Below, piece by piece: positions 9,301 to 29,126 of a stretch of 41,555 nt of DNA. Both the position numbers and the translations under genes were made by a program. The stretch lies in the IMG/VR virus record IMGVR_UViG_3300044633_000786, positions 1-41,555 of that record; one strand, written 5' to 3'. Below the pieces are notes generated by a model. It was not told the DNA's origin and did no database searches. It saw nothing but the letters and a program-made list of their open reading frames with translations. How positions within the stretch are numbered: position 1 is the first letter of the stretch; the number at the start of each line of letters is the position of its first letter. The DNA comes from a virus.

Positions 9301-9736
9301 TAAAATTTTATTTGGGACCACTGCATCATCTGAGTTGCAAGCAACTTTTAAGATTACAAAAACACCAGGTCAAGTAATTTCAGATAACGATGTTAAATCT
9401 CAAGTAATTGCAGCAATTAATGACTTCTTTGTGTTAGATAATTGGGATTTTGGAGATACGTTCTTTTTTACAGAGTTAGCAACATATGTAACGACTAAAG
9501 TTGCACCAAATATATCTAATTTTGTTATTGTTCCAAAACATAATAGTATTAATTTTGGAGGGTTGTACGAAATAAAATCGGCTATGAATGAAATTTTAAT
9601 CAATGGTGCAACGGTTAATGATATAGAAATTATATCAGGTATTACTGCATCAAATATAAAATCTTCAAATTTAATCACTGAAAACAATACAATAAATCGC
9701 CAATTTATAACAAGTTCAGCTTATGGGAGTAACTAA
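6326..9736 (+). CDS. gp6: Baseplate wedge protein gp6 (enlarged)
   Basis: The wedge scaffold that forms the inner baseplate ring; family of T4 gp6 and phage P2/Mu baseplate J-like proteins. The conserved N-terminal part contains FENLRRTMVDYIRQNYPEDF, YIESSEYLALLDVIAFLGQS and ENFFELAERRDSVLRLARLI, followed by SYNAKRNIPS (together about residues 32-115). The C-terminal dimerisation-type region shows VIYHPVNYKILFG and FFVLDNWDFGDTFFFTEL. At 1136 aa it is much longer than T4 gp6 (about 660 aa). The extra length lies mainly in the middle (about 430-900), with low similarity to anything I recognise. The stop shares one base with the next ATG (TAATG). Confidence 0.88.
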   Translation: MSATDRQNRLLVAEDWKKVYQSFKNADFQSYDFENLRRTMVDYIRQNYPEDFNDYIESSEYLALLDVIAFLGQSISFRVDLNARENFFELAERRDSVLRLARLISYNAKRNIPSTGLLKFSSIQTTQSVIDSNGRNMAGQIVTWNDPSNSNWYDQFIKIMNASMSVNQQFGNPSDKATIYGTLTEKYTLETNSNDVPVYSFTKTVAGRTMNFEVTSTTFAGQNYIYEETPKAGRKLSCIFKNDGQGYGSAGSGFFLNFTQGTIANAQFTITQPRSNEIVDIGTTGINNTDLWLYRLDKNGLETEEWTKVSNFEGNNIIYNSVNKSIRNIYSVTTRANDAVSLNFSDGTFGNKPLGTFKVYYRTSNGISYVVNPKDIRNITLSIPYVSNYGQQEVLTVSLSLETTISTAETTETNANIKANAPATYYTQNRMITGEDYNIAPLSVSQQILKVKAVNRSSSGISRYFDLVDPTGKYSSTNLFADDGVIYTENYQSTDKFKYISKTDIQGVIANIINKILKKDELRNFYYSHYTTKFQTADDIYVWSSNVDTSGCIKSGTLLGDILQVGATTSGSLMLSYIKSGALIKFISPSNQYFDTTNQNKLETLGINDEITNHFGATTYIWAAVVSVSNDGLDANSIILNVNVPAGSTVSQIIPQFRSILETSVITTITDLIFENKEFGLSYNTSLQQWQIIRESNLNYLNAFNILSQGDITNKQQDSSWMILFTTDNETYTISSRETRYIFESDTQLRFFYDKTQSVYNSVSNSSVRDKIKVLSINTNSNTKSYTTDFSWDVVSEYIGLDGYVDNKKIVISFSDSDNNGVVDDPDVFTQIVSTNTYVIQEKYVISQGQEDYKFIKNNGTILNFVRSTESYTVQPGKYYYFIDTNTVKKASSTGTLEASIDYKVYVGRSGLKFQYVHNAKYDSRIDPGASNIIDVYILTKSYDTYYRQWVSGAITTKPLPPSSEELYNIVAPSLNLIKSISDEVIYHPVNYKILFGTTASSELQATFKITKTPGQVISDNDVKSQVIAAINDFFVLDNWDFGDTFFFTELATYVTTKVAPNISNFVIVPKHNSINFGGLYEIKSAMNEILINGATVNDIEIISGITASNIKSSNLITENNTINRQFITSSAYGSN

Positions 9737-12700
9737 TGGCTAACAATATACCTAGAATAACAGCAACTGATCCAAGTGATGATGCTACGTCTGCATCTTT
9801 TTTACCTCGAATTTATAGAACTGATTCAAATAAAAAGTTTTTACATTCAACAATAAATCAACTTACTCAACCAGGGGCTGTAAAAAAAGTTAGCGGTTAT
9901 ATTGGAAGACAGTATTCAAAAGCTACGTTGTCCGATGATACATTTGTTAATGCGCCAACTCGTAATCGCCAAAATTATCAACTTGAACCCGGATTCGTAA
10001 TTGAAGATAACATGCATAATAACGTGTTTTTAAAAGATTATCAAGATTATATTAATCAATTACGTGTATTTGGTGCCGATGTTTCAAATCATTCTAGACT
10101 AAACAAACAAGAATTTTACAGTTGGAATCCTCATATTGATTGGGATAAATTTGTTAATTTTCAAAATTATTATTGGATGCCTCACGGTCCTGATACCATT
10201 ACTATACAAAACAAATCAAAAATACAAATTACTAGTACTTACACTGTAAACGTTGAAACAACAGAGTATGGTAGTTCTTATATTTTTTCACCTGATGGAA
10301 TGACTAGAAATCCAGTAATTACATTATATAGAGGACAACAATATAAATTTATAATTAACAGTGTTGAAAATCCATTTAGTATTAAAACGTTACGAACTAC
10401 TGGGCCATTAGATCGATACATAAATCCGTTATTACTTAATAATGCAATCGAAACTGGCACTATAACATTTACAGTTCCGAACAATGCCCCTGATGAACTA
10501 GCATACGTAAGTGAAAATAATATTGATATGGGAGGAGTGTTTAATATCTTAGATGTAAGTGAGACTGGGTATATTAACGTAGAGTCCGATCTTATTGGAA
10601 AGAAAACGTATAGCTATGGTACTATAACATTAGTTGATGAAACAATAGTGCCGTTTGCATTAAGCAACGGCATGAAAGTGCAATTTGCTGGAAATGTATT
10701 TCCTAAAAAGTATGCTACTGGAAGATATTATGTTGAAGGCGTTGGGGATGCAATTCGATTAATACATGAAAATGATTTACAAATTATTACTGCATACACT
10801 AATACTTCGTCAATGTTATTTGACACAACACTATTTGATACAACTCCATTTAGTGACTCAATTTCGTATGTTACTAACCCTGATTACATTGTAATTAATC
10901 GTGCATCTGTTGATAAGAATTTTTGGAGTAGAAATAACAAATGGATTCACAAAGATGTTATTGAAAAAAGTGCGTTAAAAAATGGCATACATCCTGCTTA
11001 TGATCAGTCAATGCGAGCAGCAAGGCCAATTATTGAGTTTGAGAAAAATTTAAAATTATTTAATTTTGGAACTACATCTATCATTGATATTGCGGTTATT
11101 GATACGGTTACAGTTGATGCATTTTCAATAGTAGAGGGAGCATTTGGATATAATATTGATGGTGTTGACCTTAAAGATGGCCAACATGTTATTTTTACAG
11201 CTGACTTAGATGATCGTGTAACAAACAACATCTATCGTATTGATTTTATTAATGTATTACATGAAAATAGTTTGCAGAAAATTAGTAGCAAAGGAAAAAT
11301 TGATTCAATTAGTGCAACTAATAGCGGATGGACCGCTAAAATTACCAACATGAATTCAACTGCTGGATTAAATGTAGGAACACTAATTGCGGTAACAGAC
11401 AAAACCGGAAAGTTAGGTGGCGGCCCTTCAGGCAGTGCCGGGTCTGCAAGAGTTTCTGCAATAATTGATTCAACTAGTATTGAATATCGCATAATTGGCG
11501 GCAACAAACCAACTGTTGGAACAGTTGCTGATATTATTTGTGTTATTAATAGTAATCAAATTCGATTAGTTGAAGTGGCAAAACCAGTATACAATCAAGT
11601 TGCGTTAATACAATACGGCACTGTTTCGCAAGGACAAATGTATTGGTTTAATGGCACAGTGTGGAAATTATGCCAACAAAAAACTAAAGCAAACCAGCCG
11701 CCACTATTCGATTTAGTTGATGAAAATGAATATAGTTTTGGAGATTTATCGGTATATCCAGGTACGTCGTTTGATGGAACTTCTATTTTTTCTTATAAGG
11801 TTGGAACAACAATAGCAGATAAAAATTTAGGTTTTGCATTGTCATATAAAAATATTAACAACATTGGCGATATTGTTTTTAATTTTTCGTTAGTAACTGA
11901 TAAGTTTAGTTATGAAGTAAATGAAAAAATTGTTAGTAAACAGGTTGATACCGGGTTCTTAATTAAGTATGATGCAGCTGGAAAGATATCATATGTTAAT
12001 GGGTGGAAAACTAGCGAAGTTGAACACACACAAGCGGCAATTAGATTGTATAGGAATTCAGATAAAACTAATAATTTTGATATTGACATTTTTGATTATT
12101 TGCCAAGTCTTTCAGAATTCGAGGCTAGAGTGTATGTTAATAATGTTCGATCTAACGATTGGATATTTAAACCAATAAGCTCAACTAATCGATATCTAAA
12201 TTATCATCAAATAATTTTTAACACTGATGTAAAGTTAACTGATTCAATAATGATTAAAGTGTATTCAAATCTTCCAGTTAATGCTAACGGGTATTTTGAG
12301 ATTCCAATTAACTTACAAAATAATCCATTAAATGGCGTGTTATCAGAATTTACATTAGGTGAAGTAATTGATCATGTTGGCAGTATTGTTGATAACGTGC
12401 ATACTAGCGGTTTTTTTGGAAACTATCCTGGGATAAGCAATTTAAGAGATTTAGGCTCAGTTTCGCAATACGGTACAAAGTTTGTTCAACATAGCGGTCC
12501 TGCAAGTTTATCAATGTATCATATTACTTCGGATACAAATAATATAATTCGTGCAATTGATCAATCTAGAGATGACTATTGTAAATTTAAAAAGACATTT
12601 ATGTTTGTTGCAGAATCGTTAGGGGTTGATGCAGACGAGTTTACTCATGTAAATTTAATACTACGCCATATTAATAAAGATGCGCCAAGTACGTCGGCAT

Positions 12701-15700
12701 ATTATTTTAGCGATATGGCACCTTATGGATCAAGAATTCAAACAGATTTCTTAGTAGCTGCACCTGAAGATAATTTGTTTTCTTTATCGCAAGGGTTTTC
12801 ATTGTCTACGTTATCATCAACTGCAGTAGGAGTATATTTAAACGGTATGCAATTATTGCACGGTAAAGAGTATTCATTTACTGATCAAGGGTTTATATAT
12901 GTAACTGCAGAGTTAACAGCCGGCGATACTATAACAGTTTATGAATATGAAAGTACCGACGGTTGCCTAATACCTGAAACACCAACTAAATTAGGCATGT
13001 GGCCAAAATATGAACCAAAAATATTTTTAGATACTACGTTACGTATTCCTGTGAATATGATTCAAGGACACGATGGAAGTTTAACATTAGCATATAACGA
13101 TTATCGAGATGCATTAGTATTAGAGTTAGAAAAACGAATTTATAATAACATAAAAGTAACATATGATCCGACATTATTCGATGTTGCAGATGTAATTCCT
13201 GCGTATTCAAGAAAATCGGATTATAGTAGAGAGCAGTTTAATTCTTCATTAATGTCAAATTTTTATAAATGGTCTTCGAAAGTTGGCGTTGATTTTGCAA
13301 CACCACTATCGTATGATACTCGTGATTCTTTTACTTTTAGTTATTCTAAACAGGCTGCGCCTGATGGAAGAGTTACGCCTGGTTTTTGGAGAGGCATATA
13401 CCAGTGGATTTTAGATACTGATCGCCCTCATATGTGCCCATGGGAAATGTTAGGGTTTTCCGAAGAACCTAGTTGGTGGATATCAGTATATGGTCCAGCA
13501 CCGTATACTAAAAATAACTTAATTTTATGGCAAGATATTAGCCGCGGGCTAGTAAAAGAGCCAAACAAACTACCAATTCGTCTTAAAAAATATGTTAAAC
13601 CGTTTTTAATGGATCATATACCAGTTGATGACGATGGGAATTTACTTAGTCCGTATGATATCAATTTAGCAACGGGTTATATAACTCCTAGTATTCAAGG
13701 CGACTTTATCTTTGGTGATGTTTCTCCAATTGAAGCTGCATGGAGGAGAAATTCGCATTATGCATTTAGTGTAATAAAAACAGCTATTTTATTAAATCCT
13801 GCAAGAGTAATTGGTGTATTGTTAGATCGTTCACGGATTGTGATTAGTAAAACCGGACAGTTAATATATACTGATACAAATTTAAGAATTACGCCATCTA
13901 GTATTGAGTTACCAACTGTATATTTAAGCTCTAATCGTATTCAAACTGCAGGATTAGTTAATTATTTGATTAATTACATTGATTGCAACACGTTAACACA
14001 ATACAACAATTATAAATTTGAATTAGAAAATATTGTAGCAAAGTTATGTTACAGAGTAAGTGCATATACAAGCAAAGAAAAATTTAATTTGTTATTAGAT
14101 TCAAAGTCACCTATTGCAGTTGGCAGTATTTTTATTCCGCAAGAAGACTACACCCTTGTGTTAAACTCGTCATCTCCAATCGGAATTTTAACATACAGTG
14201 GAGTTGTAATTACTAAAATTGCTGGCGGATTTGAAGTTAAGGGTTATAGCCAACTACAACCATATTTTAAATATTTTCCTTCACTAACGTCGGGGGTTTC
14301 GGTTAATGTTGCAGGCATTTCTGAAAGTTTTGTTGAATGGGCACAAGGACAAGACTACTTTGTAGGATCGTTAGTTAGATATCTTTTAAGGTATTATCGA
14401 GTTCTAGTTGATCATAAATCAACGTTATTATTTGAGTTTAACAAGTTTTATTCTTTAGAAAAAATGCCAATAGTAGGCGGTGTTAACGCATATTTTAAAA
14501 ATAAATGGGATACTACTACTAAAATTATACCATACGGAACTAAACTAAATTCAATTCAAGAAGTTGTTGACTTCTTATTAGGGTATGGAAAATGGTTAAG
14601 TGCGCAAGGGTTTATATTTAATGAATATAATTCAAATCTTAGTGCAATTGAAAACTGGGAAACTAGTGCAAAAGAGTTTATGTTTTGGACTACTCAAAAT
14701 TGGTCGGCACCAAATTCTACGTGGGCCGATTGGACCACAACTATGACAATTAGATATGGTGACATAGTACGATACAACGGATCATATTACAAAGCATTAA
14801 AAGATATGCAACCGACTGTATTTAATGAGTCTGACTACTATTTGTTAAATGGTCTTGATTTATCAGGTCATGCTGTAATATCACTTAGTCCGTCTGCAAA
14901 TAAATTAGTGTTTAACACTATTTTAACTACAATTGATGATGTTACAAATCCAAATAATGAATATGAGATTTTAAATGCTAGCGGCGTTGCAATTCACAAA
15001 AGCTTCATAAACATGTTTAGAATTGATAACGCAGTAACATACATCCCAAAAACTGATGATGGTATCTTTTGTGCAAGTTTTTACTTAATTCAACGTGAAC
15101 ATGTTGTAGTTCTTAATAACACTACAATGTTTAACGATACAATTTACAATCCTGAAAGCGGTTACAAACAAGATAAGATTAAAGTTTCGGGTTACGTAAG
15201 TTCTAATTGGAACGGTACGTTATCTGCTCCGGGATTTATTGTTGATCGTGCAATTATAACTGAGTGGACCCCGTGGAAACATTATATTATTGGTGATACT
15301 GTAAAATATAAATCATTTTATTACAGTGCTAAATCTTCGTTAGCTGGCGCAGAATCGTTTGATTCTGCAAAATGGTCAAAATTAGATAAAAAACCAACAC
15401 CAAAAATGTTACCAAACTGGACGTATAAAGCAACACAGTTTACTGATTTTTATAGTTTAGATAGTGAAAATTTTGATATAGCTCAGCAAAATTATGCTCA
15501 ACATTTAATTGGTTATCAGAAAAGACAGTATCTTGAAAATATTATTCAAGATGATGTAAGTGAATATAAATTTTATCAAGGTATGATTATTGAAAAAGGA
15601 ACCCAAAATGTTCTTAATAAGCTATTCGATGTGTTGAGTGCAGCTGGCAATGAAAGTTTACAATTTTATGAAGAATGGGCAGTTCGTACTGGGCAGTACG

Positions 15701-18700
15701 GTGCATGTTCGTCGTTTGAAAGCATTGAATTTGTGTTATCAGAATCTCAATTTAAAATAAATCCACAAGGATTTGAATTAGTTAATACTAAAGATCGATT
15801 CCATGAAACCTTAGTTATTCAACAAGGAGTTACTGATATCTATGTAAAACCTGCAAGGTACACACCAAATTTATGGCCAGTGGCTAAACCGTTAAAAACT
15901 TCAACGGTTTATGCAAGAGTTGATGAAGTTGCGTTTAGTGTAAAACAACTTTCTGATATTAATATTGCAATGGTTAAGAATGGTGACTATATTTTATGTA
16001 CATTTGCTCCAACTGACTGGAACGTTTATCAATATTTTGATCGTAGTATTAATGATTCATATAAAATTCAAATTACGTTAATTACTTCAGATGACGATGG
16101 AACATACATCACACTTGATAACACGGCTGAAATTTCAGTAGGCACACTAATTGTATTTAAAAATGTAGGAGATGACAAAGTTTACACCGTTACTGCTATT
16201 CAAGGTAATATTATAACTGTTGTTACTGATGTAATTATTACTGCAACTGAAAACTCAACGGTTGGTCTGTTAATACCTCGAAGAATTGGCACTACTCTTG
16301 ATAACAACAATTATACTAATGCTGATCTAAAATCTAATTATTTAATATGGACTGATAATGATTCTAATGTTACTGATTATTATCAAGATACTAGCAACTG
16401 GAAAGTGTGGGAATATAACCCAGTATATGCATTAACTGCTAGGCCCAATTTAAATTCAAAAATTAGTCAATACGGACGTGCAATTGCAACAACTGACGAT
16501 GGTACCACAATTGCAGTATCTCAAAAATCTGATAATGGGTACGATATTTTTAGAGGAGAAGTTGTAATTTATAATAACACTAAAAATGATTGGATTGCAA
16601 CTCAAATTATTAAACGTCCATTAAGATTTCAAAGTGTTAGCGAAGTTGATAATGAGGATAATGTAGCAACAGTTGTTGCGTTGTCGCCAGATGGAGAATG
16701 GTTAGCATTAGGATCACCAACTGCTGATAGCAATAATCAAGGAGTTATTTCAATATATAAACGAGATGTTAACAGCTTATATGTATTAGTTGACACACGG
16801 ATTAGTCCAGAGCCTTTAGACAATGAACATTTTGGAAATTCTATTGCATTTGGTACTAATATGATGTTTGTAGGTACAACTGCTAGTACAGTTTATAGAT
16901 ATGAATATAAATTAACAGAAAAAGGATTCACTACCTTTGTGTCTAACGGAAGTAAAGGCACTACATTAGTAGTTGCTAGTACTGCAGGTATATCACGCGG
17001 GATGATACTATCAGGTAACGGTTTTACACCTAACCATTTAGTGTCATCTGTAGTTAATGGAACTACTATTATAATTAGTCTCGAACCTGCAGAAAAACCT
17101 GCAGGTCGTATTGCGTTTTCAGTTTACGAATGGGCTGAATTACCTAGTATTAGTAAACCGACTGGTGCATCTGATGCGTTTGGTACAGACATTTCAGTGT
17201 CGTTAAACAATACAATTGCAATATCAGATCCACGTACAAATGGCAAAGTATATGTATATTATGCAAATGAAGATTTTGTTTATAACTCAGCTAATCAAAT
17301 TGATAATATAGTAGCTAACACCGTTGGACAACATATTTCATTGTCAAAGAATGATGATTTTATTGCAATTTCAAATATTTTAAGTTCAACTGCACGTAAT
17401 GTAAATATCTATTCTTTATCACTAAAAGAATCTGTACAGGTTATTCCAACTGTTGAATTTAGTTCAGCAAATGCTCCTGCAGTGTTTTTTACAGACGACT
17501 ATCGTACGCTAGTAATTTGTGATTTTGATTATGTTTCTGTTGCAGATGTATACAACATTTATGAAAAAGATTGGATTTTTAGTGAACGCCTAGAACCAAA
17601 ATATGCATCACCAATATTTGCAGTTACTGCTACTAATTTAATAGTAGGTGCACCTGCATGGACTGAGCAAACAGCAACTATTAATCTAATTAATAATACC
17701 GCACATACAAATACAACGGCTACTGGTAAAATTGATAAAGATAAAGACTTAGTGTGTAACATTGCCATTAACGACATTATTATTGGCAACGGTATTCCGG
17801 AAGGGTCGGTAATTACTGCAGTTAATCCTCAAAGTGATTTTATAGAATTTACAGTTACATTCCCAATAGCCACTACAATAACTACTGATATAACAACAAC
17901 ATATGTATTTGTATCAAGTACAGGTAATGGTGCTGGAAAAATATATGAATATGTTAAGCCAGTTAACCAATTTTCATGGACAGTTAAAAATACATCAATT
18001 ACTAAACCTGACATTACTAAAGTTAAACAAGCGTTTTTATACAACAAAGTATCTAATAAATTAATAAAATATTTAGATGTTGTAGACCCTATACAAAATA
18101 AACATCCTATTATTGCAGAACGAGAAGTAAAGTATAAATCCCCATATGATCCTGCAATTTATTCGCATGCTACAACTACTGTAGTTACTGTGGATGAAGG
18201 TATTGCATGGGGCGCAGCACAAGTTGGTTCGTTATGGTGGGATGTGCGCACTACTAAGTTCTTTGACAATTTTACAGACAATTCTGTTTATAGAAACAGC
18301 ATGTTAGGTACATTAGCAACTGGTGCATCAGTTGATATTTACGAATGGGTTGAAACTGAGTTGTTACCGGCAGACTGGGATGCAGACGCTGATACATCTG
18401 CAGGGTTAGCGCAAGGTATAAGTGGAACATCGTTATACGGAGATAGTGCATATGTGGAAGTAAAAACATATGACACGATAAGTCAGCAGTTTTCGTCTAC
18501 TTATTATTATTGGGTTAAAAATAAAGAAACAATTTCGTCAACTATTGGTAGAACAATATCAGCTGCAAATGTTTCTAGGGTAATTTCAAATCCTAAAGGC
18601 GAGGGGTATGAATACCTTGCATTAACTGGGTTAAATTCATTTAGTTTAGTTAATGTTAAACCATATCTGTTGCATGATGATATTGTGTTATCGATTGAAT

Positions 18701-21700
18701 ACTGGTTAATAGATAAAACTGATCAGAATATACACACTCAATGGAAATTAATTAGTACATCGTCGTCAACTGACATACCAGCATCTATAGAACAAAAATG
18801 GATTGATAGTTTATGCGGTAAAGATGTTAACGATCGATTAGTGCCAGATCAACTGTTACCGCCTAAATTAAAATATGGTATTGAAAACAGACCTCGTCAA
18901 AGTATGTTTGTTAATCGATTTGAAGCAATTAAACAAGTAATTGAACAAACTAACATACATTTAAAATCAGAGTTAATTGTCGATACAAGAGATCTTTCGT
19001 TGTTAACATCATATGATACTCCGCCGACTAGTATTCGGCGGTTATATGACACTACATTAGATACTAATTTAGAATTGCAGTATGTGATCACAAAGTATTA
19101 TATTGCGCCTAGTTTAACTGCAGATATTACAGATGGAAAAATTACAAATGTTAATATTATTAGTTCCGGTCAAGGCTATTTAATTGCGCCTTATATTACA
19201 GTTACTGGTACTGGCAAGGGTGCAGTAATTCAGTCAATTATTAACGAATCTGGACAAATAACCGGAGTTAAAATTCTTAACGGTGGCGACGGGTATACAT
19301 CCAATCATGTGTTAACAGTTAGAAGTTTTTCAGTATTAGTGCTAAGTGATGCAACTAGTAACGGAAAATGGAGTATTTATTCATATGTTCTTTCTACTAG
19401 CACATGGTATAAATCGTTAACATACACGTACGATACGACAAAGTATTGGAAGTATGTTGATTGGTATAAACCTGGGTTTAATCAATTTACAACAGCAACC
19501 CATCTAGTAACCACGTATGCAGAATTATCTCAACTAAATGATACAGTTGGTGATATTGTAAAAGTAAAAACAACTAATTCAGGTCGATGGGTATTATTGC
19601 AAAAACATGATCCTACAGTTAACCAACAACTAGAAGAAACTGCATCGTTTGATTGGACACACTTGTATACCGTAATTGGTAGCCAAAACGGTACTATTCA
19701 GTTTAGCTCATTATTGTACGATTTTTACGGTACTGTTATTGGGTATGACGGCATGTTATATGATTCCGGAATGCATGACAATTTTGCATCTATTGAATTG
19801 CGCAATATTTTAATTGCAATTAAGGATGATTTGCTAATAGGCAATTTAAAAACTAAGTATTTAGAATTGTTCTTTTCAACTGTTAGATATGCAATGAATG
19901 AGCAAACCTATATTGACTGGATATTTAAAACTAGTTTTGTAAATGTAATGCATCAAGTAGGTAAATTACAGCAACGAGTTACCTATAAAAATGATAACTT
20001 GTCTAATTTTGAAGATTATGTGTCTGAAGTGAAGCCGTATCGAACACAAATCCGTGAATATATAAGTTCGTATACTAATTTAGATGATAGTAATGTTGCA
20101 ATAACTGATTTTGATTTACCACCTGCATACGACTTAGATCGAAATGTAGTTTCAGTAGTAGATTACGATAATCCGTTAATTAATTCATATCCGTGGAAGT
20201 TTTGGTTAGATAATGTAGGGTATTCACTAGTTGATATAAAAATTACTAGTGGTGGAGCAGAATATTTAACAGAACCAGCAGTAACTATTGAATCTAAAAC
20301 CGGATTGGGCGCAACCGCTCGCGCATTTATTGTTAATAAGCAAATATCTAGAATTAAATTAATTACTCCAGGGTCTGGATATAAAACAACACCTAAGATT
20401 GTAATTACTGGAGGGTATTCAAATAATGGTAAATCTGCAACTGCTATTCCAATTTTAGGTAAAAGCGTAGTAAGAACAAGCAATATTGCATTAAAGTTTG
20501 ATCGAGTAAATCAAAATTATCTTATTGATAACTTGCAACATGTTGAAACTATTAAAGGCGCGTCAATCGTAACCGGTACTAAAGTTCAGTTTATTCTTAA
20601 ATGGATACCAGATGTATCAATTGGAAAAACTTCAGTAACTGTTAACGGTGTACTTGAAATCCGCGACAATTATAAAATGGGAACAGTTATATCAATTGTT
20701 GATGGCCATCCTGTTCACACTGGTGTAATTACATTTAAAACTGCACCAATGCGCGGTAGTGAACTTATTATATCATATTATAAAGATACTGGGTTGCTAA
20801 CGGCAACCGATAGAATACATTATTATTACAAACCAAATTCGGGTGATGTAGGAAATGATTTACCGCAGTTGATGTCAGGGATCGATTATGGCGGAGTAGT
20901 AGTTAGCGGATTAAGTTTTGAAGTTGATCATGGTTGGGATAGTATGCCGTACTATAACGACACTTGGGACAACTTTGATCCTGCACTCAACGACGTTAAG
21001 TACACATTAGGTGACGAGTTTTCTTATACAATTAAACTTCCATATGTTCCAACAATTGGTACAAGATTAAACGTGTATCTTGTAAAACCAAATACTGAAG
21101 CAGTGCGTATTGATTCAAAAACTTACGATATTGACGTAGTAGACCTTGCAAATCCAAATGCAGCAATGTTAACACCAATTGCAACAGGTGATACTGATAT
21201 TATTGAAATTCCAACTTCAATAAGTGCAGATGCAGGTGATACTATTATTATACGTAAAGAAACAAGTGACGGTGCGATAGTTAACGAGTATGACACTGCA
21301 TTGTCAGGTGGTAATTTTTCTTATAACGCAATGTCGGATGGGCTATCGGCTGAGGATATAGTAGTTGATGGTGACGATTTTAATTCAGTAACTGCTGGCA
21401 TTGGTCCAGAAGAAGTAGTTCCGGGACAAGTTATTGACACACTTGGAATTAAAGTATTTAATAAATTGCCATCGGGTGAATTTACGTCGTTTATGCATTT
21501 TAAAAATATGTTAAATCAATATCGGTATATTCGGTTAAATGCAAATAAACGTACCCGATTAGTTAACGAGTTAAATTATTACGATACTACTATTACAGTT
21601 GAAGATTCAAGTTTGTTTGATCAAACATCGTATGGTAGTTATGGCATAATTGACATTAATGGTGAACGTATTGAATTTTTCTCAAATGTAGATAACGTGT

Positions 21701-22404
21701 TAAGCGGTCTTCGTAGGGGAACTATGGGTACAGGAATTCCGACTGTGCATAGAGCCGAATCAATTGTGCAAGAGCTAGGTCTAACTGAAACAATTCCATA
21801 TGTTGAAAATACACAAATTGAACAAGTAGTATCAAATGGAACCCATTTTATAAATTTGTCGTACACACCTAACAAAGTAGCAAATACTAAATGGAGTTTT
21901 GCAGATCCTGCACTTGCAGAATATGGACAAAGTGATGAAATTGAAGTATTTGTTGGGGGATACGATAATTATAAAATATGGACATTAGAGACTGTGTATT
22001 ATGTGAATGACATTGTAAATGTTGGAGTGTATGTTTACCGATGCGCAGTTCAACATGTAAGTAGTAGTAATTTTAAAAATGATCGTAGTAAATGGAATTA
22101 TTTTATTGGAAATATACGATTGAAAAAGACGCCGTATGTTGTTTACAATATAAATTCTGAAGAAGGTGAGCATACATTTGATGCAGACTTTTCAGTAAAC
22201 GGTACTACTAAACAAATACGATTAACAAATGTGTTAAGTGCAAATACAATAGTAACTATTATTAAACGACAAGGCAGTAAATGGGTTAACAATCAAACAG
22301 AATTAAATTTTATAGGGTCAGTACCTGGAGTTGATTATGCTGATATCTCAATAACATATGATTCAACTAGCATTACATTTGATAGTGAAGATACAAGATT
22401 TTAA
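9736..22404 (+). CDS. Giant 4222-aa baseplate/virion structural protein
   Basis: Sits where T4 has wedge genes 7-10. The first 150 residues (FLPRIYRTDSNKKF, QLEPGFVIEDN, WNPHIDWDKFVNFQNYYWMP) match a large structural protein common in marine T4-like phages. Further regions: about 190-272 a cupredoxin-like fold lacking copper ligands; about 395-500 VIEKSALKNGIHPAYDQSMR and related blocks; about 1070-1340 a Trp-rich conserved core (FWRGIYQWILDTDRPHMCPW); about 1665-1706, 1843-1884 and 4079-4123 carbohydrate-binding-module-like strips (Y..GD.V.Y...YY.A); about 2246-2640 FG-GAP-like beta-propeller repeats; about 3139-3193 and 3503-3566 GxGY...P.I.I.G repeats; about 3929-4025 a conserved C-terminal block (NGERIEFFSN, GLRRGTMGT). 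It starts in TAATG with GGGAG six bases upstream. No signal peptide or membrane segment is evident. Likely a baseplate-peripheral or fibre-carrying protein; exact T4 equivalence is uncertain. Confidence 0.8.
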   Translation: MANNIPRITATDPSDDATSASFLPRIYRTDSNKKFLHSTINQLTQPGAVKKVSGYIGRQYSKATLSDDTFVNAPTRNRQNYQLEPGFVIEDNMHNNVFLKDYQDYINQLRVFGADVSNHSRLNKQEFYSWNPHIDWDKFVNFQNYYWMPHGPDTITIQNKSKIQITSTYTVNVETTEYGSSYIFSPDGMTRNPVITLYRGQQYKFIINSVENPFSIKTLRTTGPLDRYINPLLLNNAIETGTITFTVPNNAPDELAYVSENNIDMGGVFNILDVSETGYINVESDLIGKKTYSYGTITLVDETIVPFALSNGMKVQFAGNVFPKKYATGRYYVEGVGDAIRLIHENDLQIITAYTNTSSMLFDTTLFDTTPFSDSISYVTNPDYIVINRASVDKNFWSRNNKWIHKDVIEKSALKNGIHPAYDQSMRAARPIIEFEKNLKLFNFGTTSIIDIAVIDTVTVDAFSIVEGAFGYNIDGVDLKDGQHVIFTADLDDRVTNNIYRIDFINVLHENSLQKISSKGKIDSISATNSGWTAKITNMNSTAGLNVGTLIAVTDKTGKLGGGPSGSAGSARVSAIIDSTSIEYRIIGGNKPTVGTVADIICVINSNQIRLVEVAKPVYNQVALIQYGTVSQGQMYWFNGTVWKLCQQKTKANQPPLFDLVDENEYSFGDLSVYPGTSFDGTSIFSYKVGTTIADKNLGFALSYKNINNIGDIVFNFSLVTDKFSYEVNEKIVSKQVDTGFLIKYDAAGKISYVNGWKTSEVEHTQAAIRLYRNSDKTNNFDIDIFDYLPSLSEFEARVYVNNVRSNDWIFKPISSTNRYLNYHQIIFNTDVKLTDSIMIKVYSNLPVNANGYFEIPINLQNNPLNGVLSEFTLGEVIDHVGSIVDNVHTSGFFGNYPGISNLRDLGSVSQYGTKFVQHSGPASLSMYHITSDTNNIIRAIDQSRDDYCKFKKTFMFVAESLGVDADEFTHVNLILRHINKDAPSTSAYYFSDMAPYGSRIQTDFLVAAPEDNLFSLSQGFSLSTLSSTAVGVYLNGMQLLHGKEYSFTDQGFIYVTAELTAGDTITVYEYESTDGCLIPETPTKLGMWPKYEPKIFLDTTLRIPVNMIQGHDGSLTLAYNDYRDALVLELEKRIYNNIKVTYDPTLFDVADVIPAYSRKSDYSREQFNSSLMSNFYKWSSKVGVDFATPLSYDTRDSFTFSYSKQAAPDGRVTPGFWRGIYQWILDTDRPHMCPWEMLGFSEEPSWWISVYGPAPYTKNNLILWQDISRGLVKEPNKLPIRLKKYVKPFLMDHIPVDDDGNLLSPYDINLATGYITPSIQGDFIFGDVSPIEAAWRRNSHYAFSVIKTAILLNPARVIGVLLDRSRIVISKTGQLIYTDTNLRITPSSIELPTVYLSSNRIQTAGLVNYLINYIDCNTLTQYNNYKFELENIVAKLCYRVSAYTSKEKFNLLLDSKSPIAVGSIFIPQEDYTLVLNSSSPIGILTYSGVVITKIAGGFEVKGYSQLQPYFKYFPSLTSGVSVNVAGISESFVEWAQGQDYFVGSLVRYLLRYYRVLVDHKSTLLFEFNKFYSLEKMPIVGGVNAYFKNKWDTTTKIIPYGTKLNSIQEVVDFLLGYGKWLSAQGFIFNEYNSNLSAIENWETSAKEFMFWTTQNWSAPNSTWADWTTTMTIRYGDIVRYNGSYYKALKDMQPTVFNESDYYLLNGLDLSGHAVISLSPSANKLVFNTILTTIDDVTNPNNEYEILNASGVAIHKSFINMFRIDNAVTYIPKTDDGIFCASFYLIQREHVVVLNNTTMFNDTIYNPESGYKQDKIKVSGYVSSNWNGTLSAPGFIVDRAIITEWTPWKHYIIGDTVKYKSFYYSAKSSLAGAESFDSAKWSKLDKKPTPKMLPNWTYKATQFTDFYSLDSENFDIAQQNYAQHLIGYQKRQYLENIIQDDVSEYKFYQGMIIEKGTQNVLNKLFDVLSAAGNESLQFYEEWAVRTGQYGACSSFESIEFVLSESQFKINPQGFELVNTKDRFHETLVIQQGVTDIYVKPARYTPNLWPVAKPLKTSTVYARVDEVAFSVKQLSDINIAMVKNGDYILCTFAPTDWNVYQYFDRSINDSYKIQITLITSDDDGTYITLDNTAEISVGTLIVFKNVGDDKVYTVTAIQGNIITVVTDVIITATENSTVGLLIPRRIGTTLDNNNYTNADLKSNYLIWTDNDSNVTDYYQDTSNWKVWEYNPVYALTARPNLNSKISQYGRAIATTDDGTTIAVSQKSDNGYDIFRGEVVIYNNTKNDWIATQIIKRPLRFQSVSEVDNEDNVATVVALSPDGEWLALGSPTADSNNQGVISIYKRDVNSLYVLVDTRISPEPLDNEHFGNSIAFGTNMMFVGTTASTVYRYEYKLTEKGFTTFVSNGSKGTTLVVASTAGISRGMILSGNGFTPNHLVSSVVNGTTIIISLEPAEKPAGRIAFSVYEWAELPSISKPTGASDAFGTDISVSLNNTIAISDPRTNGKVYVYYANEDFVYNSANQIDNIVANTVGQHISLSKNDDFIAISNILSSTARNVNIYSLSLKESVQVIPTVEFSSANAPAVFFTDDYRTLVICDFDYVSVADVYNIYEKDWIFSERLEPKYASPIFAVTATNLIVGAPAWTEQTATINLINNTAHTNTTATGKIDKDKDLVCNIAINDIIIGNGIPEGSVITAVNPQSDFIEFTVTFPIATTITTDITTTYVFVSSTGNGAGKIYEYVKPVNQFSWTVKNTSITKPDITKVKQAFLYNKVSNKLIKYLDVVDPIQNKHPIIAEREVKYKSPYDPAIYSHATTTVVTVDEGIAWGAAQVGSLWWDVRTTKFFDNFTDNSVYRNSMLGTLATGASVDIYEWVETELLPADWDADADTSAGLAQGISGTSLYGDSAYVEVKTYDTISQQFSSTYYYWVKNKETISSTIGRTISAANVSRVISNPKGEGYEYLALTGLNSFSLVNVKPYLLHDDIVLSIEYWLIDKTDQNIHTQWKLISTSSSTDIPASIEQKWIDSLCGKDVNDRLVPDQLLPPKLKYGIENRPRQSMFVNRFEAIKQVIEQTNIHLKSELIVDTRDLSLLTSYDTPPTSIRRLYDTTLDTNLELQYVITKYYIAPSLTADITDGKITNVNIISSGQGYLIAPYITVTGTGKGAVIQSIINESGQITGVKILNGGDGYTSNHVLTVRSFSVLVLSDATSNGKWSIYSYVLSTSTWYKSLTYTYDTTKYWKYVDWYKPGFNQFTTATHLVTTYAELSQLNDTVGDIVKVKTTNSGRWVLLQKHDPTVNQQLEETASFDWTHLYTVIGSQNGTIQFSSLLYDFYGTVIGYDGMLYDSGMHDNFASIELRNILIAIKDDLLIGNLKTKYLELFFSTVRYAMNEQTYIDWIFKTSFVNVMHQVGKLQQRVTYKNDNLSNFEDYVSEVKPYRTQIREYISSYTNLDDSNVAITDFDLPPAYDLDRNVVSVVDYDNPLINSYPWKFWLDNVGYSLVDIKITSGGAEYLTEPAVTIESKTGLGATARAFIVNKQISRIKLITPGSGYKTTPKIVITGGYSNNGKSATAIPILGKSVVRTSNIALKFDRVNQNYLIDNLQHVETIKGASIVTGTKVQFILKWIPDVSIGKTSVTVNGVLEIRDNYKMGTVISIVDGHPVHTGVITFKTAPMRGSELIISYYKDTGLLTATDRIHYYYKPNSGDVGNDLPQLMSGIDYGGVVVSGLSFEVDHGWDSMPYYNDTWDNFDPALNDVKYTLGDEFSYTIKLPYVPTIGTRLNVYLVKPNTEAVRIDSKTYDIDVVDLANPNAAMLTPIATGDTDIIEIPTSISADAGDTIIIRKETSDGAIVNEYDTALSGGNFSYNAMSDGLSAEDIVVDGDDFNSVTAGIGPEEVVPGQVIDTLGIKVFNKLPSGEFTSFMHFKNMLNQYRYIRLNANKRTRLVNELNYYDTTITVEDSSLFDQTSYGSYGIIDINGERIEFFSNVDNVLSGLRRGTMGTGIPTVHRAESIVQELGLTETIPYVENTQIEQVVSNGTHFINLSYTPNKVANTKWSFADPALAEYGQSDEIEVFVGGYDNYKIWTLETVYYVNDIVNVGVYVYRCAVQHVSSSNFKNDRSKWNYFIGNIRLKKTPYVVYNINSEEGEHTFDADFSVNGTTKQIRLTNVLSANTIVTIIKRQGSKWVNNQTELNFIGSVPGVDYADISITYDSTSITFDSEDTRF

Positions 22405-22419
22405 TTAAGGATAAAATAA

Positions 22420-23607
22420 ATGGCTAAACAAACAATAAACGTAGGTTCATCGTCTAATGATGCAACAGGTGATACACTGCGAGGTGGTGCAATAAAAATT
22501 AATAGTAATTTTACCGAATTGTATCAGAACAATGATTCGGTGTTTACTAGATTACTTGCAGGATCTCACATTACATTATCTAAAGTAGGTAATAATTGTA
22601 CAATAAACGCAATAGTAACTCCGTATGTGTTACCAACAGCAAGTACAAGTACAATAGGCGGTGTAAAAGTTGACGGATCTTCTATTACAGTTAACGGAAG
22701 TGGTGTAATTAGTACTTCAGTCTACTCACTACCAACAGCAAGTACAAGTACAATAGGCGGTGTAAAAGTTGACGGTACTACAGTTACTATTTCTAATGGT
22801 ATAATTAGTGCAGCTGCTGCATATTCACTACCAACAGCGAGCCAATCTGAAAAAGGCGGTGTGAGAGTTGACGGATCATCTATTTTAATTAATAATAGTG
22901 GTGTTATAAGTTCAGTATATACGTTACCAATTGCTAGTACAACTGCGTTAGGTGGCGTAAAAGTTGATGGATCATCTGTTACTATTTCTAATGGTATAAT
23001 TAGTGCAGCTTCTGCATATTTATTGCCAGTTGCATCAACTACTGAGTTAGGCGGTGTAAAAGTTGACAACACTACTATTACTATTTCTAATGGTATAATT
23101 AGTGCAGCTGCTGCATATTCACTACCAATTGCAACAACTACTGAGTTAGGCGGTGTAAAAGTTGACGGTACATCTATTATAATTAACGGTAGTGGTGTAA
23201 TTACTAGTACTCTTGCTAGTTCAAGAACACCTGTATCAAATACAACAACAGTTATATTTCCTGGTTCAACTGTTAATTTAACAATTGTTGGATACAAAGG
23301 TTATGCGTTGTACAAAGTTGAGACATTTTCTTCAGCAGGTAGCGGCGGTGCATGGGTAAGAATCTATACAAATTCCGCATCAAGAACATCAGATGCATCT
23401 AGATTACAAACAAGTGATCCGTCTATACAAGGCATACTTGCTGAAGTTATTACTATTACAAACGCAACAGTTCCAATTACACCAGGAGTTTTTGGATTTA
23501 GCGACGAAGCTGTACCAACTTCAAATATTCAATTAGCAGTAACTAATACAAGTCAAGTTCCTTGTACAATCACTGTAACATTAACGTTGTTACCGTTGGA
23601 GATATAA
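22420..23607 (+). CDS. Repeat-containing tail fibre protein
   Basis: A 395-aa fibre-type protein. The N-terminus has INVGSSSNDATGDTLRGGAI then KINSNFTELY (about 5-35), a recurrent attachment motif in marine phage fibres. Residues 71-265 are six tandem copies of about 33 aa with the pattern LP.AS....GGVKVDG....I..G.IS, expected to form a trimeric beta-structured shaft. The last 120 residues (GYKGYALYKVETFS, WVRIYTNSASRTSDASR, PITPGVFGFSDE) look like a jelly-roll-type terminal domain seen on such fibres. An AAGG ribosome site precedes the ATG after a 15-nt gap from the giant gene, and the protease gene starts one nucleotide after its stop. A role in host-surface contact is inferred from architecture. 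Confidence 0.75.
   Translation: MAKQTINVGSSSNDATGDTLRGGAIKINSNFTELYQNNDSVFTRLLAGSHITLSKVGNNCTINAIVTPYVLPTASTSTIGGVKVDGSSITVNGSGVISTSVYSLPTASTSTIGGVKVDGTTVTISNGIISAAAAYSLPTASQSEKGGVRVDGSSILINNSGVISSVYTLPIASTTALGGVKVDGSSVTISNGIISAASAYLLPVASTTELGGVKVDNTTITISNGIISAAAAYSLPIATTTELGGVKVDGTSIIINGSGVITSTLASSRTPVSNTTTVIFPGSTVNLTIVGYKGYALYKVETFSSAGSGGAWVRIYTNSASRTSDASRLQTSDPSIQGILAEVITITNATVPITPGVFGFSDEAVPTSNIQLAVTNTSQVPCTITVTLTLLPLEI
22630..23214 (+). repeat. Six tandem ~99-bp coding repeats in the fibre gene
   Basis: Units of 33, 33, 32, 33, 33 and 31 codons encode LP.AS....GGVKVDG repeats. Parts are identical at DNA level: 46 bp are the same at 22631-22676 and 22730-22775 (one repeat apart), and a block of about 50 bp starting at 22784 recurs at 23078. 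This points to recent duplication or gene conversion and possible copy-number change. Confidence 0.9.
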
Positions 23608-23608
23608 A

Positions 23609-25315
23609 ATGAAAGATCTTCATGAATATATCATTACGTTACATAAGTTAGAGGATTCTGATGATTTTTATCACGATCTCGAGACGACAGGCGGAACTAC
23701 TGATATACCAGAACGTGCTGTTCTAGTATATCGTAGAAGACCAATTAGTAGAAATACACATTACATGCTAACTCATGAAGAAGCAAAATTAATTAATAAT
23801 GATCCAAGAGTTGCAGGTGTTACATTAGCTGAAATGATATTAAATTCAATTACACCTAACTGGACAACACCGTCTCAAACTTATGACAAATCGTCAACTA
23901 ATTGGGGAACACACTATAACTGGGGTATAAAGCGGTGTACGTATGGAAATCAATTAAGCCCGTGGGGAAATCCAGGAACTCCAAGTATTACAAGTACATC
24001 ATCTTACAGTTTAAGTGGTAAGAATGTTGATGTTATTATTGTTGACGGACATGTTAATCCATCACATCCAACATTTAGTATAAATGCCAATGGCACAGGC
24101 GGAAGTAGAGTTAATCAATTTGATTGGTATACGCTAAATTCATTAGTATCGTCAGTTGACGATGATGCAGCAACTTTGTTATCTGGAACTTATACATATA
24201 CTCCATATTCAACCGGGTTTGGATCGGACGCAGCATCGGATAATAATCATGGATGTCATGTTGCCGGAGTAGCAGCAGGTAATGAAAACGGGTGGGCACG
24301 CGATGCAAACATTTATAACATTAGCCCGTATACTAGTACTAATCCAAATTCGTTAAGTTCGTTAATTATGTGGGATTACATAATAGCATTTCATTTATCA
24401 AAAACTGTAAATCCCGCAACTGGTGTTAAAAACCCAACTATATGTAATTGCAGTTACGGAGCATCTTTAAAATTTCCAAATACTTTAGGCTATACAACCG
24501 GACCAATTACGTATGCTAGTTATCGAAACACTGAAATTGGTGACGATATTGTAGCATTAACCGCTGCTGAATTAAATTCTGTTGGAATTTATAACACTAC
24601 AGAATCAGGAGTAGTAACTGCAACGGTGCCATACTTTAATGAAGCAACTGCAGCTGACATAGAACAAGCAATCGCTGCCGGAATAATAATCGTAGCTGCA
24701 GCAGGCAATGATTCGTTCTTTATAGATAACGATGACGGCCTTGATTATAATAATACGTTTGATGCTACATATGACGAAACTAATTATCTTTGGTATCAAC
24801 ATAGGGGTCAGGCACCTGCGGCTGTATCAAATGTGATTGCTGTAGGTGCAGTTGGCATAAATTCTGTAGAAGATAAAGCATCGTATAGTAACACCGGACC
24901 TCGAATTACTGTGTTTGCACCTGGAACTAATATAATGAGTTCATTCAATGACAACCATTATTATGGGGCTGTAACTGACCCAACAAATAGTAATTATTTT
25001 AATGGAAAAATTTCTGGAACATCTATGGCTAGTCCGCAAGTATGCGGAGTGTTAGCATGTGTATTAGAGGCGTATCCTTCTATGAATCAAGCAGATGCAC
25101 TACACTATATTCAATCTTATGCTAGACTAAATCAAATAACAGGTACATCGGGAGGTACTTCGGATACACATGATTTACAAGGTGCACCAAATTTATATTT
25201 GTATGCATATCCAGAACGCCCGTTAGTAAATTCAGTATACCCAAAAAGAAATTTTAAAGTAAGACCAACTGTTGGGAATGTATTTCCTAGAGCTAAAATC
25301 CGTGTATACAAATAA
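23609..25315 (+). CDS. Subtilisin-family serine protease (S8) in the tail fibre cluster
   Basis: A 568-aa subtilase with all catalytic parts in order: Asp146 in VIIVDGHV, His214 in HGCHVAG, oxyanion Asn367 in AAAGND and Ser472 in GTSMASPQ. Residues about 1-80 (EYIITLHKLEDSDDF, LTHEEAKLINNDPRVAG) resemble an inhibitor-I9-type propeptide, so it may be made as a zymogen. No signal peptide is visible, as expected for a protein packed on a virion rather than secreted. The C-terminus has two related short motifs (SVYPKRNFKVRP and NVFPRAKIRVYK) that might dock it to the particle. GGAGA at 23598-23602 sits six bases before the ATG, and the gene is packed between fibre genes. The likely role is cleavage of host surface protein or maturation of a tail protein. 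The family is certain, the target is not. Confidence 0.88.
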   Translation: MKDLHEYIITLHKLEDSDDFYHDLETTGGTTDIPERAVLVYRRRPISRNTHYMLTHEEAKLINNDPRVAGVTLAEMILNSITPNWTTPSQTYDKSSTNWGTHYNWGIKRCTYGNQLSPWGNPGTPSITSTSSYSLSGKNVDVIIVDGHVNPSHPTFSINANGTGGSRVNQFDWYTLNSLVSSVDDDAATLLSGTYTYTPYSTGFGSDAASDNNHGCHVAGVAAGNENGWARDANIYNISPYTSTNPNSLSSLIMWDYIIAFHLSKTVNPATGVKNPTICNCSYGASLKFPNTLGYTTGPITYASYRNTEIGDDIVALTAAELNSVGIYNTTESGVVTATVPYFNEATAADIEQAIAAGIIIVAAAGNDSFFIDNDDGLDYNNTFDATYDETNYLWYQHRGQAPAAVSNVIAVGAVGINSVEDKASYSNTGPRITVFAPGTNIMSSFNDNHYYGAVTDPTNSNYFNGKISGTSMASPQVCGVLACVLEAYPSMNQADALHYIQSYARLNQITGTSGGTSDTHDLQGAPNLYLYAYPERPLVNSVYPKRNFKVRPTVGNVFPRAKIRVYK

Positions 25316-25364: not shown

Positions 25365-25976
25365 ATGCAGACTACAGATTTAACAGGGATACATATCGAA
25401 GGACATCTTAAGATTTTTGATCCCGCTAGTAAAGAAGTTTATGTGAATAAACGTAACGCAATTCACTATGAAAATATTAGTATTGCGTTAGCAAGAGGGA
25501 TTGCAAACAGAGGAGATGGGTTTATATATGAGATGAGTTTTGGTAACGGGGGCACATCCATTGATGATACTGGAATTATTACATATTTAACGCCAAATAG
25601 CTCAGGTTCAAATGCTAGTTTATATAACGAGCAATTTTCTAAGATTGTTAATGATTCGTCAATTAACAATTTAGATCCAACTCGTAATTATATTGAAACT
25701 CGACATGTGCCTGGTCACAATTATACTGATGTATTTGTTACTTGCTTGTTAGATTATACTGAACCTGCAGGGCAATCTGCATTTGATAATTCTTCAACAG
25801 TTAACAACGCATTTATTTTTGATGAATTAGGATTAAAGTCTTACGGTGCAGATGGCAATAACATGTTATTAACTCATGTTATTTTTCACCCAGTGCAAAA
25901 ATCGTTAAATCGATTAATTCAGATTGACTATACAGTACGAATTCAAAGTTTAACTAGTGTAGTAGGAGTTCAATAA
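25365..25976 (+). CDS. Conserved virion structural protein of unknown role
   Basis: A 203-aa protein I recognise only as a type recurring in marine T4-like phage structural regions. Visible features are GIHIEGHLKIFDPASKEVYV and NKRNAIHYENISIALARGI in the first 50 residues, YEMSFGNGGTSIDDTGIITY (about 61-80), and a C-terminal strand series THVIFHPVQKSLNRLIQIDY. No membrane segment, signal peptide or enzyme motif is seen. It is probably a baseplate or fibre-connecting subunit, judged by its place between the protease and fibre genes. A GAGAG ribosome site precedes the ATG. The stop overlaps the next start by one base (TAATG). Confidence 0.6.
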   Translation: MQTTDLTGIHIEGHLKIFDPASKEVYVNKRNAIHYENISIALARGIANRGDGFIYEMSFGNGGTSIDDTGIITYLTPNSSGSNASLYNEQFSKIVNDSSINNLDPTRNYIETRHVPGHNYTDVFVTCLLDYTEPAGQSAFDNSSTVNNAFIFDELGLKSYGADGNNMLLTHVIFHPVQKSLNRLIQIDYTVRIQSLTSVVGVQ

Positions 25977-28198: not shown

Positions 28199-29079
28199 GT
28201 TATATTATAAACAAAACAGATGGTTCAGTATTAACTGAAATTACTGATGGAAATATTGATCAAGTAGCAACTGATTTAACGTTAATTGGTAAAAGTGCAA
28301 GTGCATACGGTGAATATATTAATGAAAATTTAGTTAGATTATTAGAAAATTTTGCTAATACATCACAGCCGTTGCATCCGGTTGAAGGGCAGTTGTGGTA
28401 TGATACAATTGAAAAACGGGTAAAAGTATATGACAGCACTGCAGGGTTTAAATTAACTAGTGGTACTATTGTGTCTGATATCGTGCCGTCGTCAATTGCA
28501 CAAGGCGATATATGGATTGATAGTAAACGTCAGCAATTGTATTTTAATGACGGAGTTGCAACGATTTTAGCAGGGCCGTACGATCCTGCAGTAACTGGAT
28601 TTAGCATTATTGAAGTGTTAGACATTTATGATATACCTAAAACACTAATGGTATTAGTAATTGATACTGTACTGTTTGCAATTTATAGTAATGAAGAATT
28701 TACTCCCGGTTCTGATATCTTAGCATCTGGCTTTTCGGATCAAATTAAAGTTGGTTTAAATTTAATTAACTCATCAATAATAACAAATGTTGCAGATCCG
28801 GTAAGTTTACAAGATGCCGTAAATAAACGTACATTAATTAACAGTATAAAATTAGCACCATTAGTTGTATCAGTTGACATTTCTGCATTTACTGGAGATA
28901 AAAATGCAAAGATTATAACAGACTATCTTAATGTATTATTCCCCCCATCTGAATATAATGTTGCAGGCGGCACTACTAGATGTAAGGTGATTTGCAATGA
29001 CACTACTGCTCCAATTGAAAGCCAAATAACTATTAGACAGTTTTACTTAACAAGTGGAACATGGCAAATTCCAAGCTAA
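28195..29079 (+). CDS. Short tail fibre paralogue 2, without collar domain
   Basis: A 294-aa protein whose first 230 residues are related to the genes on both sides (LTLIGKSASAYGEYINENLV, HPVEGQLWYDTIEKRVKVYD, GDIWIDSKRQQLYF). It has no shaft or collar region. After about residue 215 it ends in a different domain containing LVVSVDISAFTGDKNAKIIT, TRCKVICND and a final TSGTWQIPS. It could be an adaptor that caps or branches the fibre, or a product of duplication followed by loss. It starts in an ATGA overlap with paralogue 1 and has only a weak ribosome site, consistent with coupled translation. Confidence 0.68.
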   Translation: MSYIINKTDGSVLTEITDGNIDQVATDLTLIGKSASAYGEYINENLVRLLENFANTSQPLHPVEGQLWYDTIEKRVKVYDSTAGFKLTSGTIVSDIVPSSIAQGDIWIDSKRQQLYFNDGVATILAGPYDPAVTGFSIIEVLDIYDIPKTLMVLVIDTVLFAIYSNEEFTPGSDILASGFSDQIKVGLNLINSSIITNVADPVSLQDAVNKRTLINSIKLAPLVVSVDISAFTGDKNAKIITDYLNVLFPPSEYNVAGGTTRCKVICNDTTAPIESQITIRQFYLTSGTWQIPS

Positions 29080-29126
29080 TTTATAACAAATACAACTAAA
29101 TATAATAAAATAAGGAATCCTACAAG

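Follow-up and report, generated by a model that had tools for sequence, protein, structure and literature searches.

A tail fibre gene followed, one base later, by the gene of a complete protease raises the question of where in the phage life cycle that protease acts, and on what. We addressed it for the window analysed here, the whole 41.6-kb IMG/VR record, by comparing the protease, its fibre and their genetic environments with those of other phages (Table 1). Taken as a whole, the explanation that we consider fairly probable is that an active pro-subtilase is docked as a payload on the fibre tip and cuts a host surface protein at adsorption.

Table 1. Positions of the features discussed, in the window unless a locus label precedes the position
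Feature	Position	Strand	Description
gp6-like baseplate wedge gene	6326..9736	+	1136 aa; PHROG 10646, E=4e-293; lineage marker
Giant virion chain	9736..22404	+	4222 aa; its gene precedes the cassette
Fibre gene	22420..23607	+	395 aa; N-terminus gp9/10-like, then head-fibre-like repeats and a C-terminal knob
Domain A, jelly-roll-type knob at the fibre C-terminus	23221..23604	+	~128 aa; from alignments and AlphaFold2 model
GGAG, ribosome-binding-like site for the protease	23598..23601	+	from sequence; 7 nt before the protease ATG, within the end of the fibre gene
Subtilase gene	23609..25315	+	568 aa, ATG start; ORF call, Pfam and PHROG
I9-like propeptide domain (predicted)	23609..23860	+	residues ~1-84, exact end inferred; predicted secondary structure
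S8 catalytic domain	24017..25123	+	residues 137-505, Pfam PF00082
Catalytic Asp146	24044..24046	+	retained in 140/142 relatives
Catalytic His214	24248..24250	+	retained in 141/142 relatives
Oxyanion Asn367 (AAGND)	24707..24709	+	retained in 142/142 relatives
Catalytic Ser472 (GTSMASP)	25022..25024	+	retained in 142/142 relatives
C-terminal tail	25217..25312	+	residues 537-568, with two degenerate repeats; predicted to be disordered
Tail core RPTVGNVFPR, proposed docking motif	25262..25291	+	residues 552-561; sole occurrence in the window
203-aa gene	25365..25976	+	downstream of the cassette; 52-54% identical to Atu_ph07 and Phosso
S53 peptidase	L163:4377-5696		after domain-A fibre, tail present
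S53 peptidase	L301:5386-6660 (same contig as L109)		after domain-A fibre, tail present
S53 peptidase	L340:3125-4366		after domain-A fibre, tail present

An intact S8 enzyme next to a fibre gene

The Pfam Peptidase_S8 profile matches residues 137-505 of the 568-aa ORF (E=1.8e-30; score 106.7 bits, cut-off 21.8). PHROG 9158, to which no function has been assigned, spans its residues 5-563 (E=3.6e-97). The Asp-His-Ser order and the D-[ST]-G/DG, HGxHVAG and GTSMA motifs of peptidase family S8 are all present. The AlphaFold2 model (mean pLDDT 85) has the subtilisin fold, with 309 matches at E<=0.001 in a Foldseek search of the PDB, and the top match of its catalytic core is the proteinase K-like structure 2b6n (E=4.5e-18, TM 0.84 by target). 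Alignment confirmed the positions that the first-pass annotation had assigned to the catalytic triad and the oxyanion Asn. Judged from its sequence, the ORF is a complete S8 subtilase with D146, H214, N367 and S472 intact. That annotation had also suggested checking whether close relatives have lost catalytic residues. Scored over 142 unique long relatives, the four residues proved to be retained almost throughout, the exceptions being S-CAM1, where D is replaced by E, and contig L134, which is frameshifted. The S-CAM1 protein (L009:6990-9245), a divergent relative annotated as a tail fibre protein, possibly represents an inactive branch.

The N-terminus of the subtilase is predicted to fold in the order beta-alpha-beta-beta-alpha-beta (E5-11, H14-25, E40-42, E49-54, H56-62, E68-73), which fits I9, and the Foldseek alignments of the model to pro-subtilisin E and pro-Tk-SP run over ~549 columns. 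A Pfam I9 search of the protein gave no match. The propeptide-like N-terminus noted at first is thus consistent with the predicted order of elements and has no counterpart in the profile search. Such an I9-like propeptide would help the enzyme to fold and hold back its activity, and autoprocessing would presumably yield the mature form. No signal peptide is evident, in agreement with the earlier reading, the highest 15-aa Kyte-Doolittle mean over the first 75 aa being 0.17. A secretion signal is typical of most extracellular S8 members and does not define the catalytic family. The window enzyme resembles the pro-forms of proteinase K and subtilisin (MEROPS S8) in its fold, triad, oxyanion Asn and predicted I9-like N-terminus, but it differs from them by the lack of a signal peptide, a stretch of ~60 aa between propeptide and core, and a C-terminal RPxxGxxYPR tail.

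The fibre encoded upstream is the presumed carrier of the protease. It matches Pfam T4_gp9_10_N and Phage_head_fibr, and its C-terminus matches PHROG 15343. Within the C-terminal knob, domain A, AlphaFold2 gave a pLDDT of ~97; compared with PDB structures, the domain returned generic beta-sandwich matches only, none of them specific. We propose that domain A is the docking site for the protease tail. The spacing of one base was correctly read in the first-pass annotation (fibre end at 23607, protease start at 23609), and, together with the GGAG located inside the fibre gene, it fits translational coupling, by which the protease would be made next to its own fibre. Fusions of domain A with the protease in a single ORF were sought among the relatives, and none was found.

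Association of domain A with proteases in other phages

A tblastn search with the subtilase returned 47 phage records at up to 42% identity, nearly all of them Synechococcus or Prochlorococcus myoviruses, and several of these records are already labelled subtilisin-like protease. Sullivan et al. 2010 (PMC3037559) had noted that some cyanophages contain S8 peptidases; that paper and those on S-CREM2 and S-SZBM1 contain no statement about a protein of the window type. In viral_contigs, at least 588 relatives of the subtilase were collected with an alignment query, which was needed since a single-sequence query detected none there. Scanning genome_contigs yielded full-length relatives in a few MAG contigs only, probably binned phage DNA. 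Three full-length or nearly full-length relatives (L181, L182 and L184), two of which have the tail, come from Rhodobacteraceae and Rickettsiales MAG bins and are probably on phage contigs.

We analysed the genetic environments of the best-scoring 80 loci of each scan. Loci located by the protease alone contain 99 subtilase ORFs, 95 of them with upstream sequence. The ORF immediately upstream ends in domain A, 125 aa long, in 89 of these 95 cases, at a distance of -4 to +8 nt from the protease (1 nt in 51 cases). In five of the remaining six cases, the protease comes after another conserved fibre end, domain B (P-SSM2, AG-345-E02, S-SCSM1, Sf-CH5 and S-T4); the sixth protease is the second of a tandem pair (L021). 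When domain A alone served as the query, the next ORF coded for a protease at all 80 loci, with two S53 enzymes among them. L109, considered as an S8 subtilase, was rejected as such; it is an S53 enzyme that matches the S8 profile weakly.

Some of the relatives have more complex architectures. Tandem subtilases are found behind a single domain-A fibre at L021:4186-8545 and L164:4353-8354; the first enzyme of the L021 pair has a large insertion in its catalytic domain and both copies keep the tail, and the contig end cuts the second enzyme of L164. In ACG-2014h (L012:4989-7913), a single chain comprises a subtilase, then an esterase-like alpha/beta-hydrolase stretch and a cupredoxin-like domain, these extra domains corresponding to weak Pfam matches (AXE1, BD-FAE and Copper-bind).

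The C-terminal tail and the payloads behind domain A

In the relatives, the core of the protease tail reads RPxxGxx[YFW]PR and is frequently preceded by a degenerate copy. The tail has a pLDDT of <50 in the AlphaFold2 model, yet R552, P560 and R561 are invariant across 49 aligned relatives, on a par with the catalytic residues. Where extra domains are present C-terminal of the catalytic domain, in S-H9-1, ACG-2014h and L130, the tail core is located between them. The five proteases linked to domain B are devoid of the RPxxGxx[YFW]PR tail. These subtilases (L007, L016, L180, L010 and L011) have a common alternative tail of the approximate form R-x-[IV]-[LI]-[FY]-[NS]-P-[FY]-x-N.

The core was found in only two of 1282 other ORFs, each inside a domain-A cassette, namely the S53 protease of L163 and, in L015, a small protein encoded after an NTGW-type protein. 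A six-frame scan of 233 kb of phage DNA without domain-A cassettes gave no match; in 729 kb of bacterial loci there were three matches, all of them non-canonical and in short reading frames. The N-terminus of the subtilase was also considered as a docking domain and rejected: the alternative payloads have no N-terminus in common with it, and the model of this region has an I9-like fold.

We made a census of the unique payloads that follow a C-terminal domain A, including those from an extra scan with domain A of non-protease cassettes. Complete S8 genes have the tail in 142 of 142 cases, 139 by pattern and three, with degenerate tails, by eye; two truncated or frameshifted ORFs and 21 ORFs cut by contig ends were left out. 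A tail of the identical type is present in all three S53 sedolisin payloads. For the NTGW-type payloads (~770-900 aa), the tail is borne by the small protein encoded next, mostly 77-100 aa long, in 45 of 46 cases, and the exception is an interrupted ORF. As the census rows are related to one another, these counts do not represent independent events; only a few units are independent, namely S8, S53 (at least two changes), NTGW with its small protein, and three siphoviruses. Across these unrelated payloads, domain A and the tail are coupled.

The NTGW-type virion proteins (L180:12708-14920, L348:5380-7910 and L347:5374-7819) mostly end with CARTT, and their genes are followed by those of the tail-bearing small proteins. 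S-BM3 has two such small genes behind its NTGW-type gene.

The three siphoviruses are the cyanosiphoviruses P-SS2, S-CRES1 and S-CBS2, in which domain A is also found and the tail protein is encoded by a separate gene. In P-SS2, domain A corresponds to ORF 087, and ORF 090, three genes downstream, ends with RPTSGFIYPRRI. The whole genomes of S-CRES1 (73.7 kb) and S-CBS2 (72.3 kb) contain one tail match each, in small ORFs that end with NRPVSGLVYPRLVG and PRPSSGFLYPRAF, respectively, and that are distant from the domain-A gene. These two phages had been regarded as exceptions to the rule linking domain A and the tail, which was rejected after the reading of the whole genomes revealed a tail ORF in each.

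The S53 payloads (L163, L109/L301 and L340), which belong to the sedolisin/kumamolisin family, occupy the same slot after domain A and have the same tail as the window protein, from which they differ by their peptidase family. They match kumamolisin (E=4e-23 and 2e-35), and their catalytic Glu, Asp, oxyanion Asp and Ser are all intact. They had no match among 50,697 phage records. They lack the usual large S53 propeptide, which indicates that zymogen control is not uniform. In the domain-A tree, the S53 label requires at least two changes, with two S53 members among the S8 cassettes; the third one is on a long branch and its placement is unsure. That an unrelated S53 enzyme takes the place of S8 behind domain A and bears the same ten-residue tail speaks for selection on proteolysis itself. 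That the subtilase fold is a mere binding head with dispensable activity appears highly improbable: the loss of the catalytic Asp in S-CAM1 would fit this idea, but the near-perfect retention of the catalytic residues elsewhere and the use of a second protease family as a replacement both speak against it.

Docking of the tail on domain A is a likely, if putative, explanation for these sequence patterns. It is also conceivable, albeit rather unlikely, that the tail is a hitch-hiking segment or binds another partner such as a chaperone, the baseplate or a host molecule, its link with domain A reflecting gene linkage only. The adjacency of the genes and the common ancestry of the relatives are in line with such a scenario, but it does not readily account for the recurrence of the tail on S53 enzymes and on otherwise dissimilar small proteins, nor for its presence far from the domain-A gene in S-CRES1 and S-CBS2. 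According to the docking hypothesis that we prefer, the mature enzyme would bind via its flexible C-terminal tail to the domain A knob of the upstream fibre. Such binding would place the payload at the C-terminus of the fibre, which is normally its distal end. We are inclined to see domain A and the RPxxGxxYPR tail as a general plug-and-socket of phage fibres for mounting interchangeable payloads. The first-pass annotation mentioned neither the tail nor the alternative payloads, nor the jumbo-phage context described below.

Phage lineage, probable virion association and possible function

The gp6-like protein of the window is ~35% identical to those of the jumbo phages PA5oct, Paride, Phosso and SCTP-2, and not to those of cyanophages. 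In blastp analyses, the giant chain is 27-28% identical over ~960-1490 aa to its counterparts in PA5oct, Phosso and Atu_ph07. By these comparisons, the window phage is a jumbo T4-like phage of the PA5oct/Phosso/GAP32 lineage. The genes of Phosso are in the order gp25-like, gp6, giant chain and 203-aa homologue, and the last two are 30 nt apart, an empty site; Atu_ph07 and PA5oct have other small genes where the window has the fibre-protease pair. No S8 relative was found at E<=1e-5 anywhere in the records of Phosso, Atu_ph07 and PA5oct, despite their homologous giant chain. Since the flanking genes are found in these phages without the pair, the latter is a module that was either gained or lost at a variable site. 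The gp6 of S-CREM1 and S-H38 is unrelated to that of the window, and in these phages too the pair directly follows a giant wedge gene.

These data bear on the possibility that the subtilase is a virion maturation protease that, like an assembly protease, cleaves tail proteins in morphogenesis, be it its own fibre or the giant chains. Its site in a structural operon beside the giant chains and its lack of a secretion signal agree with this role, and processing of a giant chain had been put forward in the first-pass annotation. The latter is disfavoured because the giant chain exists in Phosso, Atu_ph07 and PA5oct without any S8 relative. Furthermore, the cassette moves between unrelated backbones, the cyanophage gp6 being unrelated, and the same slot also holds non-protease payloads. 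We deem a maturation role improbable, although the enzyme might conceivably cut its own fibre.

Other features of these genomes were noted. Genes of 740, 294 and 504 aa in a row at 25976-30641 of the window have a related N-terminal region of ~80-130 aa, which also occurs in the lone fibre encoded behind the 203-aa homologue of Phosso and Atu_ph07. The 3274-aa chain encoded at 30656-40480, with many degenerate beta-type repeats (T-x-x-EG-x-T-V-x-F-x-V-x-T-like) and then fibronectin-like and glycine-rich stretches, is probably a long fibre. In the gp6 homologues of G011 and G012 (contigs of L090 and L091), two matching pieces are separated by a single in-frame TGA, which may reflect stop reassignment or faulty assembly.

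Several proteins of related phages have been detected in virions. Mass spectrometry of purified P-SS2 virions identified ORF 087 with 11 peptides and ORF 090 with four, as well as both ORFs between them (PMC2784084, Table 2). In S-SCSM1, the subtilase-domain protein QFG06492.1, which also has laminin-G/ConA-like domains and belongs to the domain B group, not to that of domain A, carries the depositors' tag '(virion protein)'. This tag appears to mark proteins detected by mass spectrometry, because a number of expected structural genes lack it, whereas NMNAT, reported in the S-SCSM1 virion proteome (PMC9602691), has it. For S-CREM1, the nearest isolate by layout with a proteome, 14 virion proteins were detected, and the peptidase is not named in the text. 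Based on the S-SCSM1 tag and on the near-universal pairing with domain A in the relatives, the protease is very probably virion-borne and fibre-linked, as first suspected. An intracellular effector or a lysis factor, acting outside the particle on host proteins or at lysis, would be compatible with the absence of a signal peptide and the late position in the operon. Nevertheless, the strict pairing with a fibre domain, the S-SCSM1 tag and the detection of the P-SS2 domain-A and tail proteins in virions make such a function quite improbable.

In the scheme that we favour, the two genes would constitute a tail-fibre cassette within a jumbo T4-like phage, with the subtilase as its payload. The displayed protease would cleave S-layer, outer-membrane or capsule-anchoring proteins during adsorption, which would clear a path to the receptor or expose it. 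The clearance of host surface protein proposed in the first-pass annotation is supported, indirectly, because the enzyme is tied to the distal fibre end and some relatives have lectin-, esterase- or cupredoxin-like domains. We somewhat favour a host surface protein as the substrate.

The closest known genes are the PHROG 9158 members of T4-like cyanophages (S-WAM2, S-H38, S-H9-1 and Sf-FR1, and T4-GC 292 in P-SSM2), which, at 30-42% identity, are like that of the window in their full-length family, triad and post-fibre position, and unlike it in their backbone, the window having that of the PA5oct/Phosso/GAP32 jumbo lineage. In the records and papers searched, they are given a bare name or called 'hypothetical', and neither a docking tail nor payload exchange is described. 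A subtilase beside a fibre is thus already known, as annotated in Synechococcus myoviruses. The arrangement of domain A, tail and exchangeable payload appears to be new, as neither a fibre-docked protease nor the RPxxGxxYPR tail was described in the open literature that we searched, subscription journals being outside this coverage.

The enzymes known from phage tails are for the most part sugar-degrading spikes. Like tailspike depolymerases and other enzymes borne on tails, the window protease would be a virion enzyme of the adsorption apparatus that degrades a surface layer. In contrast with them, its expected substrate is protein, not polysaccharide, and it is encoded by a gene of its own and has a putative, portable docking tail, rather than being a beta-helix spike. 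The peptidase S74 intramolecular chaperone domains of tailspikes, with which a fibre cleaves itself once, likewise represent a protease-type activity in a fibre context, but the window gene codes for a complete, trans-acting S8 enzyme.

If a fibre-tip protease is confirmed, some phages would cut or expose host surface protein before DNA injection. The S8/S53 swap points to a small candidate docking motif. The plug-and-socket, if it exists, would serve jumbo T4-like phages as well as cyanomyoviruses and cyanosiphoviruses, with S8 proteases, S53 proteases or, via a small adaptor, another structural protein as payloads, and there would be a whole class of phages with proteases on their fibre tips. 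Our analyses thus provide a hypothesis of function for PHROG 9158, for PHROG 15343 and for the many 'hypothetical' small proteins ending with RPxxGxxYPR in marine and freshwater phages.
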